A stretch of 27,572 bases of DNA, taken from positions 1 to 27,572 of the IMG/VR virus record IMGVR_UViG_3300037585_004390. One strand, 5' to 3'. Below the pieces are notes generated by a model that did not search any database, was not told the DNA's origin, and saw nothing but the letters and a program-made list of their open reading frames with translations. A program made the translations under genes and the position numbers. This DNA comes from a virus. Positions 2,578-11,276 of the stretch are shown here, in pieces (the stretch's first letter is position 1; each line of letters opens with the position of its first letter).

Positions 2578-2654
2578 TGGTACACCGGGTAGGACTTGAA
2601 CCTACAACCTACGGATTAGAAGTCCGTCGCTCTATCCAGTTGAGCTACCGGTGC
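2578..2654 (-). tRNA. tRNA-Arg (anticodon TCT)
   Basis: Folding the minus strand by eye gives a complete 77-nt cloverleaf: acceptor GCACCGG/CCGGTGT, D stem GCTC/GAGC, anticodon stem ACGGA/TCCGT with loop CTTCTAA (anticodon TCT), T stem GTAGG/CCTAC with loop TTCAAGT, discriminator A and an encoded CCA. It sits at the downstream end of the integrase operon, before a terminator. It decodes AGA/AGG. tRNA-Arg genes are common phage integration targets, so it may be a phage tRNA, the attachment identity block, or both. Its first 23 nt overlap the end of the adjacent coding sequence. Confidence 0.95.
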
Positions 2655-2889
2655 CAAATTTCTGTTCCCAGCCTTCGGGGCTGATTCCGGTGATCAGAAA
2701 TTCCCTGTCCTCATTGGAAACTGACTTGAGGGCATCCTGAATGAGCTTGCCGCGCCGGTACTGGAACAGCTCCTGTCCCGGCACCGACACTGTCCAATCC
2801 TTGCCTGTCACGCGACACTTCCCGATGAAGTGGTAGCGGTGACCGCCCTCGTAAGTCTCGGTGTACTGGAGTTGATCTAGGGCTGGCAT
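2632..2889 (-). CDS. Conserved-type small phage protein, 85 aa, ending inside the tRNA
   Basis: The protein contains HRYHFIGKCRVTGKDWTVSVPG ... FQYRRGKLIQDALKSVSNEDREFLITGISPEGWEQKFG (shown in parts), a pattern familiar from small hypothetical proteins of many tailed phages; its function is not established. It starts at an ATG overlapping the upstream stop (TAATG). The last eight codons, including the TAG stop, are bases of the tRNA-Arg 5' half: GGC ACC GGT AGC TCA ACT GGA TAG, the stop lying in the tRNA D-loop. The recognisable family region ends at about KFG, so the tRNA-encoded tail is an addition. Confidence 0.7.
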   Translation of the reverse strand: MPALDQLQYTETYEGGHRYHFIGKCRVTGKDWTVSVPGQELFQYRRGKLIQDALKSVSNEDREFLITGISPEGWEQKFGTGSSTG

Positions 2890-3125
2890 TATTCCACCAC
2901 CTCCACCGATGACGGGGCGATCCTTGGAAATGAATTATCCACTTCAACCAGATCCCAATGCTTTCCTTCAAGCAACTGATCAAGGTTAGGGTCGTCTTCG
3001 ATTTGTTCAGCCACATTGTCCTTCCATGTCATGTCGAAAGGACAAGGGTCTGATATTGGATCGATTTCGACAACCAAGTCGGTCTGCTCAACGAGCTTCC
3101 GTGTTACTGTTACCTTGATTTTCAA
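2889..3125 (-). CDS. Small protein of unknown function, 78 aa (TTG start)
   Basis: I place the start at the TTG overlapping the upstream stop (TTGA), with GGAGG four bases before it, giving a protein beginning (M)KIKVTVTRKLVEQTDLVVEI. A farther TTG at 3149 would add eight residues but has no better ribosome site. The sequence is acidic and β-rich in appearance (alternating K-I-K-V-T-V) with a WKDNVAEQIEDD segment; no domain is recognised. It is in the leftward integrase operon, coupled on both sides. Function unknown. Confidence 0.55.
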   Translation of the reverse strand: MKIKVTVTRKLVEQTDLVVEIDPISDPCPFDMTWKDNVAEQIEDDPNLDQLLEGKHWDLVEVDNSFPRIAPSSVEVVE

Positions 3126-3526
3126 AATGCCTCCACTGCCGACGACCAAGAGCCGTCTTTTTCCAAAACCTTGAGGTAGATAGCCCCGGCGTTCGGTGTT
3201 CCGAAATCGTCCAGCGGCTCCGTCAAATCGTACTCACCGGCAATCCAGCCGACGTAGTACAACTCGCCATTCCCGTCCAGCATCTGGAACTTGTCCATGC
3301 TCCACAAACTTTCTTCACTAGATTGATCGAGCTTTGACACTAGTAGTTCCTCGATCTCACCGGAGCAGTTGCTCGGCCCGATTGTGCCTACATCCGACTT
3401 TTGCCTACCGTGAATGTGATCCTCGGTGATGATCCAGCCATACTTGGCACCGTCTTTGGGATCGTAATTCACAGCCTCTGTCGGCGTAATGAATTCGATC
3501 ATTCGTTTCTTATTTAATCGCGACAT
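3122..3526 (-). CDS. Hypothetical protein, 134 aa
   Basis: An acidic soluble protein with KYGWIITEDHIHG near residues 28-40 and GELYYVGWIAGEYDL near 86-100. The N-terminal pattern (WIITEDHI, followed by a small Gly/Ser-rich region) recalls small hypothetical proteins found in phages, but no function can be given. No clear Shine-Dalgarno precedes the first ATG; a second ATG eight codons in is possible. It overlaps the upstream 45-aa membrane gene by 17 bases and the downstream gene by a few bases. Confidence 0.6.
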   Translation of the reverse strand: MSRLNKKRMIEFITPTEAVNYDPKDGAKYGWIITEDHIHGRQKSDVGTIGPSNCSGEIEELLVSKLDQSSEESLWSMDKFQMLDGNGELYYVGWIAGEYDLTEPLDDFGTPNAGAIYLKVLEKDGSWSSAVEAF

Positions 3527-4054: not shown

Positions 4055-4071
4055 GAGCCTGAATCAGGCTC
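4055..4071 (-). terminator. Hairpin at integrase stop codon
   Basis: GAGCCTGA-A-TCAGGCTC is a perfect 8-bp dyad containing the integrase TGA, followed on the minus strand by a pyrimidine stretch (TTCCCTTC) rather than a pure T-run. It could attenuate transcription or protect the integrase message 3' end. Confidence 0.4.
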
Positions 4072-5530
4072 CGATAGTTAGGTTGAAGTTAAAGTCAACC
4101 AGAAGGTTGGCGTAGTGCTTCTCCGTAGTGGAGATGTTCTGATGGCCAAGCGCGAGCTGGGCTGCGTGCATGGAGCCGGTGTTAGTGACGACCTCGGATC
4201 CGAACAAGGCCCGAAGCTCATGTAACCGCTTCTTGAAGTAGTCACATGCGTCCAGACCGTACAGCAACTCCTCGTTCCACCACTCATCGTGGAGCTTGTC
4301 CAGTGACGCCACAGCCCAACGGTGCTGACCGCGAAAGATGCGTTCAGATTTGGGAGCCTTACGACGCTTCTGCTCGGCCTTAAACCAATCGTGCAGCCAA
4401 CGAGGGATCTGTACGTCCCGCCTTGTCTTGCCCTTCGCCTCCCATGCGGGTTGCTCGAAAGACCCAACCTTGTAAGGGTCAGTGGTGCGAACCTGAACGA
4501 CCGGCACCGAGACTTTCGTGATCTCGTTTGTGAGGGCGTTACGGGCAACCTTGTCAACGATCTTGAAGGAGTCGAAAGAGAGGTGGTTGATCTCGTCCTT
4601 ACGCAGGCCGGACAGGCGAGCGATGAAGTACTTCGCAATATGGTTCCAAAGGTCGTCAGTGGAGGCGTTGTTGATGCTGAAGTCAGTACCGTCGCGAAGC
4701 GCGATGACACGGTCATCAACTTCAGTCACAACCTCGGTAGGCGGTGCCTGATAGCACTTGTTAGTGTCCACGCCGCACTTGTTGGTAGACCGGAACACCT
4801 CGATGGCTTTTTTCGGTATAGTCAACTTACCGTAGGCAACAGTGACGACGTTGTCGCTAAACAACGCCTTGGCCTTGGACAGATTCGAGTTGAAGGTAGC
4901 AGCCTTCGACTCGTAGCTTGGGCCGCATGTCAAAACAGATCCGTTACCGTCGCTCAAGACCTTCCGGCGGTACACCTCGAAGACCTTGCACTTGTCGCCG
5001 TCAACGATCTCGCCCAGTACTGACAGCGGGATCTTCCGGAGGGCATCCGTCACGGCGGTAGGAACACCCTTGATGGATGGGTCGTTACCGAAGCCGAGAA
5101 CCAACCGAACCGCCGCCGGGTAATCGGAGACAGACTTGTCGCCTAGCGGCTTGTTTTTCTTGGTGATGATCTTCTTGCCTTCACAAGCCAGCTCGAAAGC
5201 ATCGATGCAGTCCTGCACCGACGACCAGTTCTTCCGCTCCTTGATGACAACGTCCTTGGCAGCGTCAGTCCATGGAGTGTTCAGGATCTTCGCATACAGC
5301 TCGGCTCCCTTCTCGGCTGCAACCTCTATGTTAGCGGTTCCAGTGGACTTCGGGTAGGGCTTGTTGCGGATCTTTTTGAACGCCTGATAGTTCGGCGTAC
5401 CGGGTCGATTCCGTAGACTGAACACAATTTGGTTTCCGCGAAATTTCGCAGTAACGCTGGTGCTACGATCATGCTTTATGTAGGTGAACGTCGGCTTCGC
5501 GATCTTGTTGATTTCTGTATTTATGGTCAT
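4064..5530 (-). CDS. int: Tyrosine recombinase (phage integrase), 488 aa
   Basis: Site-specific recombinase that would integrate and excise the phage. The C-terminal half carries the family catalytic set: Arg310 in LSGLRKDEI, a basic β-hairpin lysine (about 366-368, AKGKTRRDV), His437-x-x-Arg440 in LHELRALFG, His463 in LGHQNIS and the nucleophile Tyr473 in TTEKHYANL. The N-terminal ~250 residues are long for the family and would contain the arm-binding and core-binding domains. It is the first gene of the leftward operon ending in the tRNA. The ATG follows leader element R2, which provides AAGG, and the operator/promoter region at 5573-5635. Confidence 0.93.
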   Translation of the reverse strand: MTINTEINKIAKPTFTYIKHDRSTSVTAKFRGNQIVFSLRNRPGTPNYQAFKKIRNKPYPKSTGTANIEVAAEKGAELYAKILNTPWTDAAKDVVIKERKNWSSVQDCIDAFELACEGKKIITKKNKPLGDKSVSDYPAAVRLVLGFGNDPSIKGVPTAVTDALRKIPLSVLGEIVDGDKCKVFEVYRRKVLSDGNGSVLTCGPSYESKAATFNSNLSKAKALFSDNVVTVAYGKLTIPKKAIEVFRSTNKCGVDTNKCYQAPPTEVVTEVDDRVIALRDGTDFSINNASTDDLWNHIAKYFIARLSGLRKDEINHLSFDSFKIVDKVARNALTNEITKVSVPVVQVRTTDPYKVGSFEQPAWEAKGKTRRDVQIPRWLHDWFKAEQKRRKAPKSERIFRGQHRWAVASLDKLHDEWWNEELLYGLDACDYFKKRLHELRALFGSEVVTNTGSMHAAQLALGHQNISTTEKHYANLLVDFNFNLTIGA

Positions 5531-6710: not shown

Positions 6711-6896
6711 ATGAAAAAACGCAAAACAAAAAAACTCAAGGCGGTCGTAATTGACGACGGCGTTCACGCTGACCTCAAGGCTTGGTGCGCCAAGCGGGGC
6801 ATGAAGATCGGGGTTGTGGCAGGAGCATTCATTGCATGGGCAATCGGTCTGGAGGAGGAAAAAGAAAAGGAGAAAAAGAATGCGGCAACCATCTGA
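6711..6896 (+). CDS. Second ribbon-helix-helix-like protein, 61 aa
   Basis: A lysine-rich N-terminus leads to a β-strand (LKAVVIDDG), helix one (VHADLKAWCAKRG) and helix two (IGVVAGAFIAWAIGLEE), the usual RHH order, then a charged EKEKEKK tail. It is the first gene of the replication transcript and sits directly behind operator O2, so autoregulation or cross-control with the integrase operon through the shared operator is plausible. Assignment is by motif layout and size. The end overlaps the DnaA-like gene by 17 bases. Confidence 0.6.
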   Translation: MKKRKTKKLKAVVIDDGVHADLKAWCAKRGMKIGVVAGAFIAWAIGLEEEKEKEKKNAATI

Positions 6897-7254
6897 TATA
6901 CGCGCCATGCTGTTGGGCTTCGAGCAGCTCGTAAACAAGGAGATGACTCCGCCGGTAGAGGCACTGACGCTGGTGGCTCTTGAACGGTATGGAGTCGATT
7001 GGGGAGAGGTCGTTGACCGCCCTCGCAACAAGCCAAAGGTCGTCATGCTTCGGCGCATGGTGAGCAAGGTACTTCGCGAGCTGGGGTTCAGCTACAACCG
7101 GATTGGGGCATTCATGCAGCGTGACCATGGATCCGTAATGCACAACGTGAGTGTGATGGATGGGATGATGGACGTTTATCCTGATGTCGTAAAAGAATAC
7201 AAGGAATTCAAAGAAGATGTTTCCGAAAAAATATCTAACCCGGCAGGAAGTTAG
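6880..7254 (+). CDS. DnaA domain IV-like DNA-binding protein, 124 aa
   Basis: Residues about 55-90 match the DnaA C-terminal (domain IV) pattern: MLRRMVSKVLRELGFSYNRIGAF, then RDHGSVMHNV at 81-90, equivalent to the DnaA signature around RDHSTV. In DnaA this helix-turn-helix binds DnaA boxes; here there is no AAA+ ATPase domain, so the protein should bind DNA but not assemble an ATP-dependent filament by itself. The ATG is set by AAGGAG six bases upstream. Likely involved in phage replication initiation or as a repressor or decoy at DnaA-type sites. Confidence 0.75.
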   Translation: MRQPSDIRAMLLGFEQLVNKEMTPPVEALTLVALERYGVDWGEVVDRPRNKPKVVMLRRMVSKVLRELGFSYNRIGAFMQRDHGSVMHNVSVMDGMMDVYPDVVKEYKEFKEDVSEKISNPAGS

Positions 7255-9514: not shown

Positions 9515-9720
9515 TGAACAACAAGGATACTAAAAAGATGTTGACTGATCCTAATTGGGCATCAGCTAACAAGGCGCGGATTAAGATGAACAAGGCGAGT
9601 GATAATTTAAACCATTACATTGCAGACCTAAAGGATCCTGAACTGAAGCGTTTAAGGAACGAACTCAGTGACGCCAAGTTTCGGTTCCAAGCCGAGCTGG
9701 CTTACATTGAAGCAGTGTGA
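9514..9720 (+). CDS. Small helical protein, 68 aa, unknown
   Basis: ATG overlaps the previous stop by one base (TGATG), with AGAGG just before it. The sequence (ANKARIKMNKASDNLNHYIADL, then KRLRNELSDAKFRFQAELAYIE) is amphipathic helix throughout with no domain recognised. The words AAGGATACTAAA at 9523 resemble the right half of the R elements but lie within codons. Its stop overlaps the GTG start of the replication initiator. Confidence 0.55.
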   Translation: MNNKDTKKMLTDPNWASANKARIKMNKASDNLNHYIADLKDPELKRLRNELSDAKFRFQAELAYIEAV

Positions 9721-10550
9721 ACTACATTGAGTTGGTCAACGGCTTCTGGCATGTGGACTTGGAATACTCGTTCCCGTCCAACGCAACCCGTCTCTACTTT
9801 GGCCTTCTCAACATGTCCAACAGGCTCGGCTGGAAGAACCCTTTCGGGGCAACCAACCAACAACTCGCAGCCCTCGTTCAGTGCGACGAGAAGACATTAA
9901 TAAAGTGTCGCAAAGTGTTGGTAAAAAGTGGCCTAATTTCGGTAAAAAGAGGGTGCAAGAATACCCCTAATTCTATTACCCTAAATGCCATACACTGGAA
10001 TATTTCCAGTGAATCCTCCAGTGAAAGCTCCAGTGTATCCTCCTGCGAATCCTCCAGCCATCTTAAAACTAAAACTAAAACTAAAAGAGTATATATTGCT
10101 CAGATCGAAGAGGTGTTCGGTTTATACCCTCGAAGGGTAGGTAAAAAAGCCGCCATCAAACGGATCCGCGAAGCCATGCATGACCATGGTTACAAATTCA
10201 TTCTGGAGAAGACCAAAGCCTACGCCAAAGCCAGAGAAGGTCAGCCTCTCGAATTCACTCCTCATCCCGCAACTTGGTACAACCAAGGCCGCTACCTCGA
10301 TGAGCCTGACACTTGGGCAGTGACCGGTTCGCAATCTGGATCCTCACCCAGCACTACCATGTCCGACTGGGAAGCCCAGAAGCAACTGGCACTTGTCGAG
10401 GCAGAGATGAAGCAAATCAAAGAGACTCACGCCTACCCCTGTCCCGGTGGTGGATATACTTGGTCAGGCGTTGACAAGAAACACCTAGCCGCCTTCAGGA
10501 AGCTCAAGGACAGGCGCAAGGAGCTAAAGCCAATTGCCATGGGACTATGA
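9717..10550 (+). CDS. Replication initiator-like protein with in-gene iterons, 277 aa (GTG start)
   Basis: The N-terminal ~95 residues read as a winged-helix replisome-organiser domain (TRLYFGLLNMSNRLGW; TNQQLAALVQCDEKTLIKCRKVLVKSGLISV). A serine-rich linker follows at about 97-122, and the C-terminal part (VFGLYPRRVGKKAAIKRIREAM; LEFTPHPATWYNQGRYLDEPDTW) matches the C-terminal region common in phage replication proteins of the O/DnaD-like type. The linker is encoded by tandem 12-bp repeats and an AT-rich tract, which suggests the origin lies inside this gene as in λ O. It should bind the iterons and recruit host helicase. GTG start overlaps the upstream stop. Confidence 0.7.
   Translation: MNYIELVNGFWHVDLEYSFPSNATRLYFGLLNMSNRLGWKNPFGATNQQLAALVQCDEKTLIKCRKVLVKSGLISVKRGCKNTPNSITLNAIHWNISSESSSESSSVSSCESSSHLKTKTKTKRVYIAQIEEVFGLYPRRVGKKAAIKRIREAMHDHGYKFILEKTKAYAKAREGQPLEFTPHPATWYNQGRYLDEPDTWAVTGSQSGSSPSTTMSDWEAQKQLALVEAEMKQIKETHAYPCPGGGYTWSGVDKKHLAAFRKLKDRRKELKPIAMGL
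9993..10059. repeat. Iteron array (CCAGTG units), candidate replication origin
   Basis: A 19-base dyad CACTGGAA-TAT-TTCCAGTG (9993-10011) runs into tandem 12-bp units at 10006 (CCAGTGAATCCT), 10018 (CCAGTGAAAGCT), 10030 (CCAGTGTATCCT), a degenerate unit at 10042 (CCTGCGAATCCT) and a partial one at 10054. All lie within the initiator gene's linker. Together with the AT-rich tract that follows, this is the classic layout of an iteron origin. Confidence 0.6.
10064..10087. repeat. AT-rich TAAAAC hexamer repeats beside the iterons (candidate unwinding element)
   Basis: Four tandem hexamers, TAAAAC three times then TAAAAG, are followed by GAGTATATATTG. The block is strongly AT-rich with strand-asymmetric A and encodes the KTKTKTKR part of the linker. 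Its position right after the iterons matches a DNA unwinding element. Confidence 0.5.
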
Positions 10551-10774
10551 CCCTCGGCGGAAATAAAAAGCCCTTACAACGCAAATATGGGACAACTAAA
10601 TACTGGATTTCATACGGAAAGGGCATTCTAGCCCAAAACAGGCCATGGCTCTCCGAAGTCAGGTGCGCCTTGATCGGGCTTGGAGAGTCTCTCAGGGACA
10701 AGGATCCGGAAGCTATCAGGCTCGCAGAGCAATTAGAGATACACAAACAATACTGTAAAAGATATGACGCCTAA
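10547..10774 (+). CDS. Small basic protein, 75 aa, unknown
   Basis: Coupled to the initiator by ATGA. The product is basic (GGNKKPLQRKYGTTKYWISYGKG) with a helical C-terminus (EVRCALIGLGESLRDKDPEAIRLAEQLEIHKQY in parts). The location directly after the initiator is where helicase loaders or DnaC-like partners are often found, but there is no Walker motif here. Function unknown. Confidence 0.55.
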   Translation: MTLGGNKKPLQRKYGTTKYWISYGKGILAQNRPWLSEVRCALIGLGESLRDKDPEAIRLAEQLEIHKQYCKRYDA

Positions 10775-11276
10775 ACAGAAAGAAGCTCGGCCCAAGCCGA
10801 AGCCCAAGAAACCAAACCAACACCTACCAGCCGAACTGGCCAACCTACCCGGCCCTCCCGATGCTGGTAGAGGAATGAAGGTCGATCCGGTGCTGTACCG
10901 GCAATGCCTCCAGATGTTCCGAGACGGTGCCACAATCAGTGCAGTGGCAGAGTTCAGTGGAGTAGGCTTCAACACCCTACAAGGCATCAGAGAGAGGCAC
11001 CTGAACCTCATCCCAAACCACAAGCAGAGGATGGCCAGAAAGCTCGACTATATCTCCGAGCAATGTGCCGATAGCTTGATGAATGATCTGGAAACTGGGA
11101 GTGTTGATCCGAAAACTAAATCGATTGTCATGGGCATAAGTATTGAAAAGTCAGCCCAAATTCGGGGAGAAACACAAACCATTCGCCATGAACACGTTAA
11201 GCTATCCCAAGAAAGTGTCGAGGATCTCCTAAACAAGCTGCCAAAGGCCAAGGTTATTGAAGTGTCAGAACACTGA
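10764..11276 (+). CDS. HTH protein, candidate small terminase subunit, 170 aa
   Basis: A Lys/Pro-rich basic N-terminus (about 1-30) precedes a helix-turn-helix (MFRDGATISAVAEFSGVGFNTLQGIRERH) and a helical C-terminal part (QCADSLMNDLE; SIVMGISIEKSAQIRGETQTIRHEHV). The ISIEKSAQIRGE stretch resembles the end of HTH proteins annotated as small terminases, where it reads like DKAQLLxGE. If correct, it would recognise the packaging site and deliver DNA to the large terminase. It is unusual that 2.7 kb of small genes separate it from terL, so a plain transcription regulator is the alternative. It overlaps the previous gene by 11 bases. Confidence 0.45.
   Translation: MTPKQKEARPKPKPKKPNQHLPAELANLPGPPDAGRGMKVDPVLYRQCLQMFRDGATISAVAEFSGVGFNTLQGIRERHLNLIPNHKQRMARKLDYISEQCADSLMNDLETGSVDPKTKSIVMGISIEKSAQIRGETQTIRHEHVKLSQESVEDLLNKLPKAKVIEVSEH

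Follow-up and report, generated by a model that had tools for sequence, protein, structure and literature searches.

The 27,572 bases of IMG/VR virus record IMGVR_UViG_3300037585_004390 (called the window here, i.e., the whole stretch of DNA that was analysed, which may be only a fragment of the virus genome) contain the gene of a phage replication initiator. Positions 9990–10098, which lie within the part of this gene that encodes a protein linker, very probably form a theta-type phage origin, with iterons that would be bound by the initiator encoded around them. This reading draws on the anatomy of the region, on its pattern of conservation, on constraint acting at the DNA level and on co-variation of the binding domain with the iterons. 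The likeness to phage lambda is supported as one of layout only, and activity as an origin would follow by analogy. The phage gives the impression of being marine, judging from its uncultivated relatives.

The features of the region are listed in Table 1. The heptamer TCCAGTG starts at 10005, 10017 and 10029 on the forward strand and at 9993 on the reverse strand. Tandem Repeats Finder delimited an array at 10005–10057 (period 12, 4.4 copies), at codons 97–114 of the open reading frame (ORF) 9717–10550, and a TAAAAC repeat at 10064–10086 (3.8 copies); the fourth hexamer of the A-rich tract (10082–10087) reads TAAAAG, and TATATAT occupies 10090–10096. An earlier note on this DNA had described CCAGTG units, a further two in degenerate form, one in inverted orientation, TAAAAC/G hexamers and TATATA, and had placed them in an initiator-like gene with an N-terminal winged helix; all of these elements were recovered in place, far above chance, and the nature of the gene was borne out as well (see below). 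None of 60 codon shuffles of the initiator gene gave an equally strong tandem array. TCCAGTG was present 11 times in the window, with 3.7 occurrences expected and none of 100 shuffles reaching 11; only four of these sites are clustered, and the other seven are scattered. The segment 10064–10098 consists of 83% AT and belongs to the top 0.2% among the 35-mers of the window. Within the 12-bp unit the longest inverted arm is 2 nt, which is no better than in shuffled units; in lambda iteron 1 it is 6 nt. The arms of the dyad formed with the inverted copy (9990–10000 and 10004–10014) pair at 10 of 11 positions. A fixed hairpin of inverted copy and first iteron was rejected, since their spacing is 3 nt in the window and 15 nt in the homologue L041; with such widely differing spacing, a pair of binding sites fits better.

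Table 1. Positions of the initiator gene, its domains and the repeat elements in the window.
Feature	Position	Strand	Remarks
Replication initiator gene	9717..10550	+	GTG start, 277 amino acids; PHROG 270
Predicted N-terminal winged-helix DNA-binding domain	9717..9986	+	residues 1–90; AlphaFold2 predicted local distance difference test (pLDDT) about 90
Inverted head copy of iteron	9990..9999	-	ATACACTGGA, inverse of TCCAGTGTAT; perfect 10-nt inverse of 10029–10038
DNA of disordered linker	9996..10082	+	residues 94–122; overlaps iterons; pLDDT 30–43
Iteron 1	10005..10016	+	TCCAGTGAATCC
Iteron 2	10017..10028	+	TCCAGTGAAAGC
Iteron 3	10029..10040	+	TCCAGTGTATCC
Iteron 4, degenerate	10041..10052	+	TCCTGCGAATCC; begins TCCTGCG
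Partial fifth unit, degenerate	10053..10058	+	TCCAGC
A-rich tract, putative DNA unwinding element	10064..10098	+	TAAAAC three times, TAAAAG, TATATAT
C-terminal part	10095..10547	+	residues 127–277; helical model; matches to PHROG 9474 and 9327

The ORF 9717–10550 matched PHROG 270 (replication initiation protein) with an E value of 2.4e-23 and, more weakly, PHROG 186 (DnaD-like) and PHROG 678 (O-like); its product is a phage replication initiator. In an AlphaFold2 model, built on a 25-member alignment, the recognition helix of the winged helix was predicted at about residues 58–71 and the wing at 74–89. The best fold matches of the predicted domain were the N-terminal domains (NTDs) of staphylococcal RepA_N initiators, 4pql, 4pt7 and 5kbj, with Z scores of 10.3, 9.9 and 9.3, respectively (for 4pql over 93 residues, with a root-mean-square deviation of 3.3); winged helices of CRP and PerR also reached Z scores of 9–10. 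A search of PDB sequences with a profile of the homologues yielded generic winged helices only, mostly SlyA. The RepA_N domain (PF06970) was matched neither by this protein at E values up to 1 nor by 25 homologues at 0.01; HTH_36 was matched by 7 of the 25 homologues. The C-terminal part, which is matched by the initiation and primosomal proteins of PHROG 9474 and 9327, probably recruits a helicase or primosome; its model gave no fold match in the PDB, including none with RepA or DnaD folds, an absence which proves nothing. In bajarodcaudo virus 4 (L044) the initiator gene (2501–2863) stops right after the iteron array, where an overlapping ORF (2823–3245) begins, an arrangement that looks like the DNA-binding part and the remainder as separate genes.

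Relatives on viral contigs comprised six close ones (L001–L005 and L008), with initiators of 60–96% identity, a partial copy (L006) and a distant one (L009). In the close relatives the linker drifts, for example from SESSSESS to TNASINAS, and 12-bp CCAGT units are kept. L008 encodes NISSTNASINASINASENAS at the site of NISSESSSESSSVSSCESSS in the window, both being specified by 12-bp units around CCAGT; L008 and L004 have lost the Ser-rich linker and retained the 12-bp register of CCAGT type, the units of L004 being degenerate. Amino acid identity of the linker drops to 0.22–0.39 in several diverged pairs. In codons 81–116, shared residues use the same codon in 83–97% of cases, compared with 48–64% elsewhere (Fisher p 0.03 to 2e-5), and pairs which are heavily diverged elsewhere are nearly without synonymous change there. 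Selection on the repeats at the level of DNA had been suggested beforehand, together with a check on whether iterons are retained while linker residues drift; the relatives support such selection on the array, and the drift was found in L008 and L004. L002 and L003 differ from the window in residues of the recognition region; two of their units read CTCCACACAAAG (core CCACAC), and their inverted arm has GTGTGG, the inverse of the new core, in place of CACTGG, whereas residues 129–200 are 88% identical to those of the window. When viral contigs were scanned for TCCAGTGNANNCTCCAGTG, 31 stretches came up, with L038, on a contig shared with L001, as the sole convincing initiator match, and the motif is thus lineage-specific.

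For more distant comparisons, 10 phage records and 36 genome loci, mostly from Bacteroidota, were used; the distant homologues of the initiator are mostly Bacteroidota prophages. Plasmid records with homologues were considered as potential evidence of autonomous replication, but in those inspected there are numerous phage genes or a different replication gene, and they support no conclusion on this. Since the homologues are related and not independent, the permutation p values given below are somewhat too small. A tandem array that was unmatched by any codon shuffle was found in 41 of 53 genes, for the most part located in the same linker and with a period of 12 or 24 in most cases, and a strict array score was passed in this linker by 31 of 50 non-redundant homologues, most of them with a different sequence. 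The repeat units are specific for lineages, e.g., CTGATACGG, CTTAAGTAAACC, TGACACACAGA, TACCCTAAACGA, AGGTAACATACA and TTTCCGACAA. Similarity of adjacent units at codon positions 1, 2 and 3 was 0.80, 0.76 and 0.78, and mismatches between units were equally distributed over the three positions (72, 83 and 79); they lie outside a contiguous core, a pattern that none of 2000 permutations of positions reproduced (p 0.026 when codon blocks were permuted). Where two units share a residue, they share the codon as well in 81.5% of pairs, versus 39.8% expected. Just upstream of the array sits an inverted copy of each lineage's own repeat: on the reverse strand the own repeat scored 4.6 bits above the repeats of other lineages (null 0.15, standard deviation 0.48; permutation p 5e-5), and on the forward strand upstream of the array no signal of the own repeat was detected (p 0.89). 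Downstream of the array the AT content is 0.75, compared with 0.56 in the remaining gene, and it is higher in 26 of 26 genes; in the tails of these 26 homologues TAAA[AC] was counted 69 times (8.2 expected), and with amino acids held fixed 68 times versus 26.5 expected, in two codon phases.

Distances between iterons correlated with distances between HTH (helix-turn-helix) helices, recognition helices or wings (partial r 0.33–0.38, p 2e-4, controlling for residues 2–44), which fits, short of proof, a winged helix that reads the iterons. Four phage initiators with a different NTD (L046, 2006–2782; L047, 2015–2767; L048, 2069–2875; L050, 2075–2800) possess palindromic iterons with a spacing of 11–23 bp instead of asymmetric 12-mers; the symmetry of the sites therefore seems to be tied to the type of NTD.

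The most likely course of binding, melting, helicase loading and use as an origin is modelled here on lambda and SPP1. Encoded immediately before the array, the winged helix would bind to the inverted head copy as well as to the 12-bp iterons, initiator clustered there would strain the TAAAAC/TATATAT tract until it opens, and the C-terminal part, on its flexible linker, would bring a helicase of the host or the phage. The sequence of the linker would be whatever the iterons encode. The asymmetry of the 12-bp units suggests that each site takes a single monomer, with about one turn of the helix between neighbours, and not a dimer on a dyad as in lambda.

Initiator genes that harbour an origin are an established kind, known from lambdoid phages (PMC7466680, PMC6022878), from SPP1 and from plasmid pSK41. 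As in ori-lambda, the putative origin lies in mid-gene, with iterons followed on the 3' side by an AT-rich region, and as in lambda O, the predicted DNA-binding NTD and the C-terminal part, which probably recruits a helicase, are joined by a linker which the iterons encode (PMC7466680, PMC6022878). The lambda O/ori layout proposed for the site from the beginning thus holds for iterons and AT-rich block inside the initiator gene, but not for the units, which are asymmetric 12-bp half-sites. The iterons of lambda are 18-bp hyphenated dyads, each carrying an O dimer (PMC6022878), and are 20–24 bp apart; here, 12-bp units without internal dyad follow each other in register with the codons, and a single inverted copy stands at their head. 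PHROG 678 is matched strongly by lambda O (1.7e-35) and weakly by the present initiator (1.6e-4, in the HTH region only), whereas their main families are PHROG 277 and 270, respectively. This comparison covers also the Stx and lambdoid relatives of lambda. In pSK41, a staphylococcal plasmid with a RepA_N initiator, the origin is inside rep, where four central Rep boxes encode a dispensable linker (PMC5703833), and the position of the boxes is like that of the iterons here; RepA_N proteins, including the Rep-DNA complex 5kbj, also rank first among the fold matches of the predicted winged helix, with generic winged helices close behind. The present protein differs by the missing Pfam RepA_N match and by HTH_36 in some homologues, a domain which the pPR9 initiator is reported to have in its phage-like NTD (PMC5703833). 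In SPP1, oriL lies within gene 38 and oriR at a distance (PMC6316719); unlike the window, where none of these were recognised, SPP1 possesses a second origin and a phage-coded helicase and loader. ORF20 of staphylococcal phage 80alpha is not complemented in trans, which suggests an embedded origin (PMC5499656), and the origin of 80alpha is probably inside this gene. With SPP1 gene 38 and 80alpha ORF20, some of the homologues (L084) can be compared, which belong to the DnaD-like PHROG 186.

Several observations speak against an origin at 9990–10098. About 19 of the 50 homologues were without a strong array of 12, 15 or 24 bp in the tested interval; some of these have repeats with longer spacing (L009, L045), and in others none were found. 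Just two of the four units were changed in L002. GC skew showed no sharp turn at the site and gave no clear answer. No gene for a helicase or helicase loader was recognised beside the initiator, the next ORFs (10547–10774 and 10764–11276) matching no loader family.

Could the repeats be nothing but a flexible, Ser-rich linker of the protein that has expanded through slippage of a 12-bp unit, the DNA sequence itself having no role? The linker is predicted to be disordered and is of low complexity, and recent tandem duplication alone might account for the identical codons within one array. It would not account for the A-rich tail, where TAAAC exceeds what the amino acids require, or for the inverted head copy, which slippage cannot create, which encodes other residues and which tracks the repeat of its lineage. 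Moreover, L004 and L008 lost the Ser-richness yet keep 12-bp units, and mismatches lie outside a contiguous core and show no preference for third positions. On drift, head copy, mismatch pattern and tail, this explanation was rejected, and we consider it most improbable. An operator, through which the initiator represses or times its own gene or operon, appears only slightly less improbable. Inverted pairs with direct repeats also build the autoregulatory sites of plasmid initiators; however, the array is about 290 bp away from the start of the gene, its surroundings showed no promoter-like site, and repression would leave the adjoining conserved A-rich tract unexplained. There is very little likelihood, too, that the array serves partition or is a secondary origin, with the main origin elsewhere. 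The two origins of SPP1 are a precedent, and a second site could lie outside of the window if this is a fragment, but the window contains no second cluster of TCCAGTG, and no partition genes were recognised among the proteins scanned.

What appears to be new, beyond the origin within its initiator gene, is the combination of a 12-bp asymmetric unit, an inverted head copy and a TAAA(A)C tail which is common to the family; a description of such a family was not found in the literature, in a search that was incomplete. Perhaps a widespread and distinct class of origins exists, a proposal toward which we lean slightly less than away from it, with asymmetric 12-bp half-sites of whole codons, winged-helix initiators bound head-to-tail, one inverted starter copy, a TAAA(A)C tail that would be recognised once melted by a shared factor, and a module of binding domain plus iterons that would be swapped. 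A simple rule could locate origins in many uncultivated phages and phages of Bacteroidota, whose initiators are annotated as hypothetical. Binding domains and sites that are matched in nature form a series from which the DNA recognition code of these winged helices could be read, and the region would be a clear example of how coding DNA can shape a linker of the protein.

A DnaA-driven origin was rejected, since no DnaA box (TTWTNCACA) occurs in the whole window. Although such a box is missing, a small ORF on the forward strand (6814–7254) matched Bac_DnaA_C (DnaA domain IV) with an E value of 7.3e-6, just below the Pfam cut-off, and its product may be a DnaA-like DNA-binding protein of the phage. 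Among phage records, OQ791282.1 ("Shigella phage Henu10") matched at coordinates and identity equal to those of Riemerella phage PT15 (ON933637.1) and is possibly mislabelled. Between a complete tRNA-Arg (TCT) gene (2578–2654, reverse strand) and the gene of a tyrosine integrase (4064–5530, reverse strand) there are about 1.4 kb, and the two are possibly linked to an attachment site.
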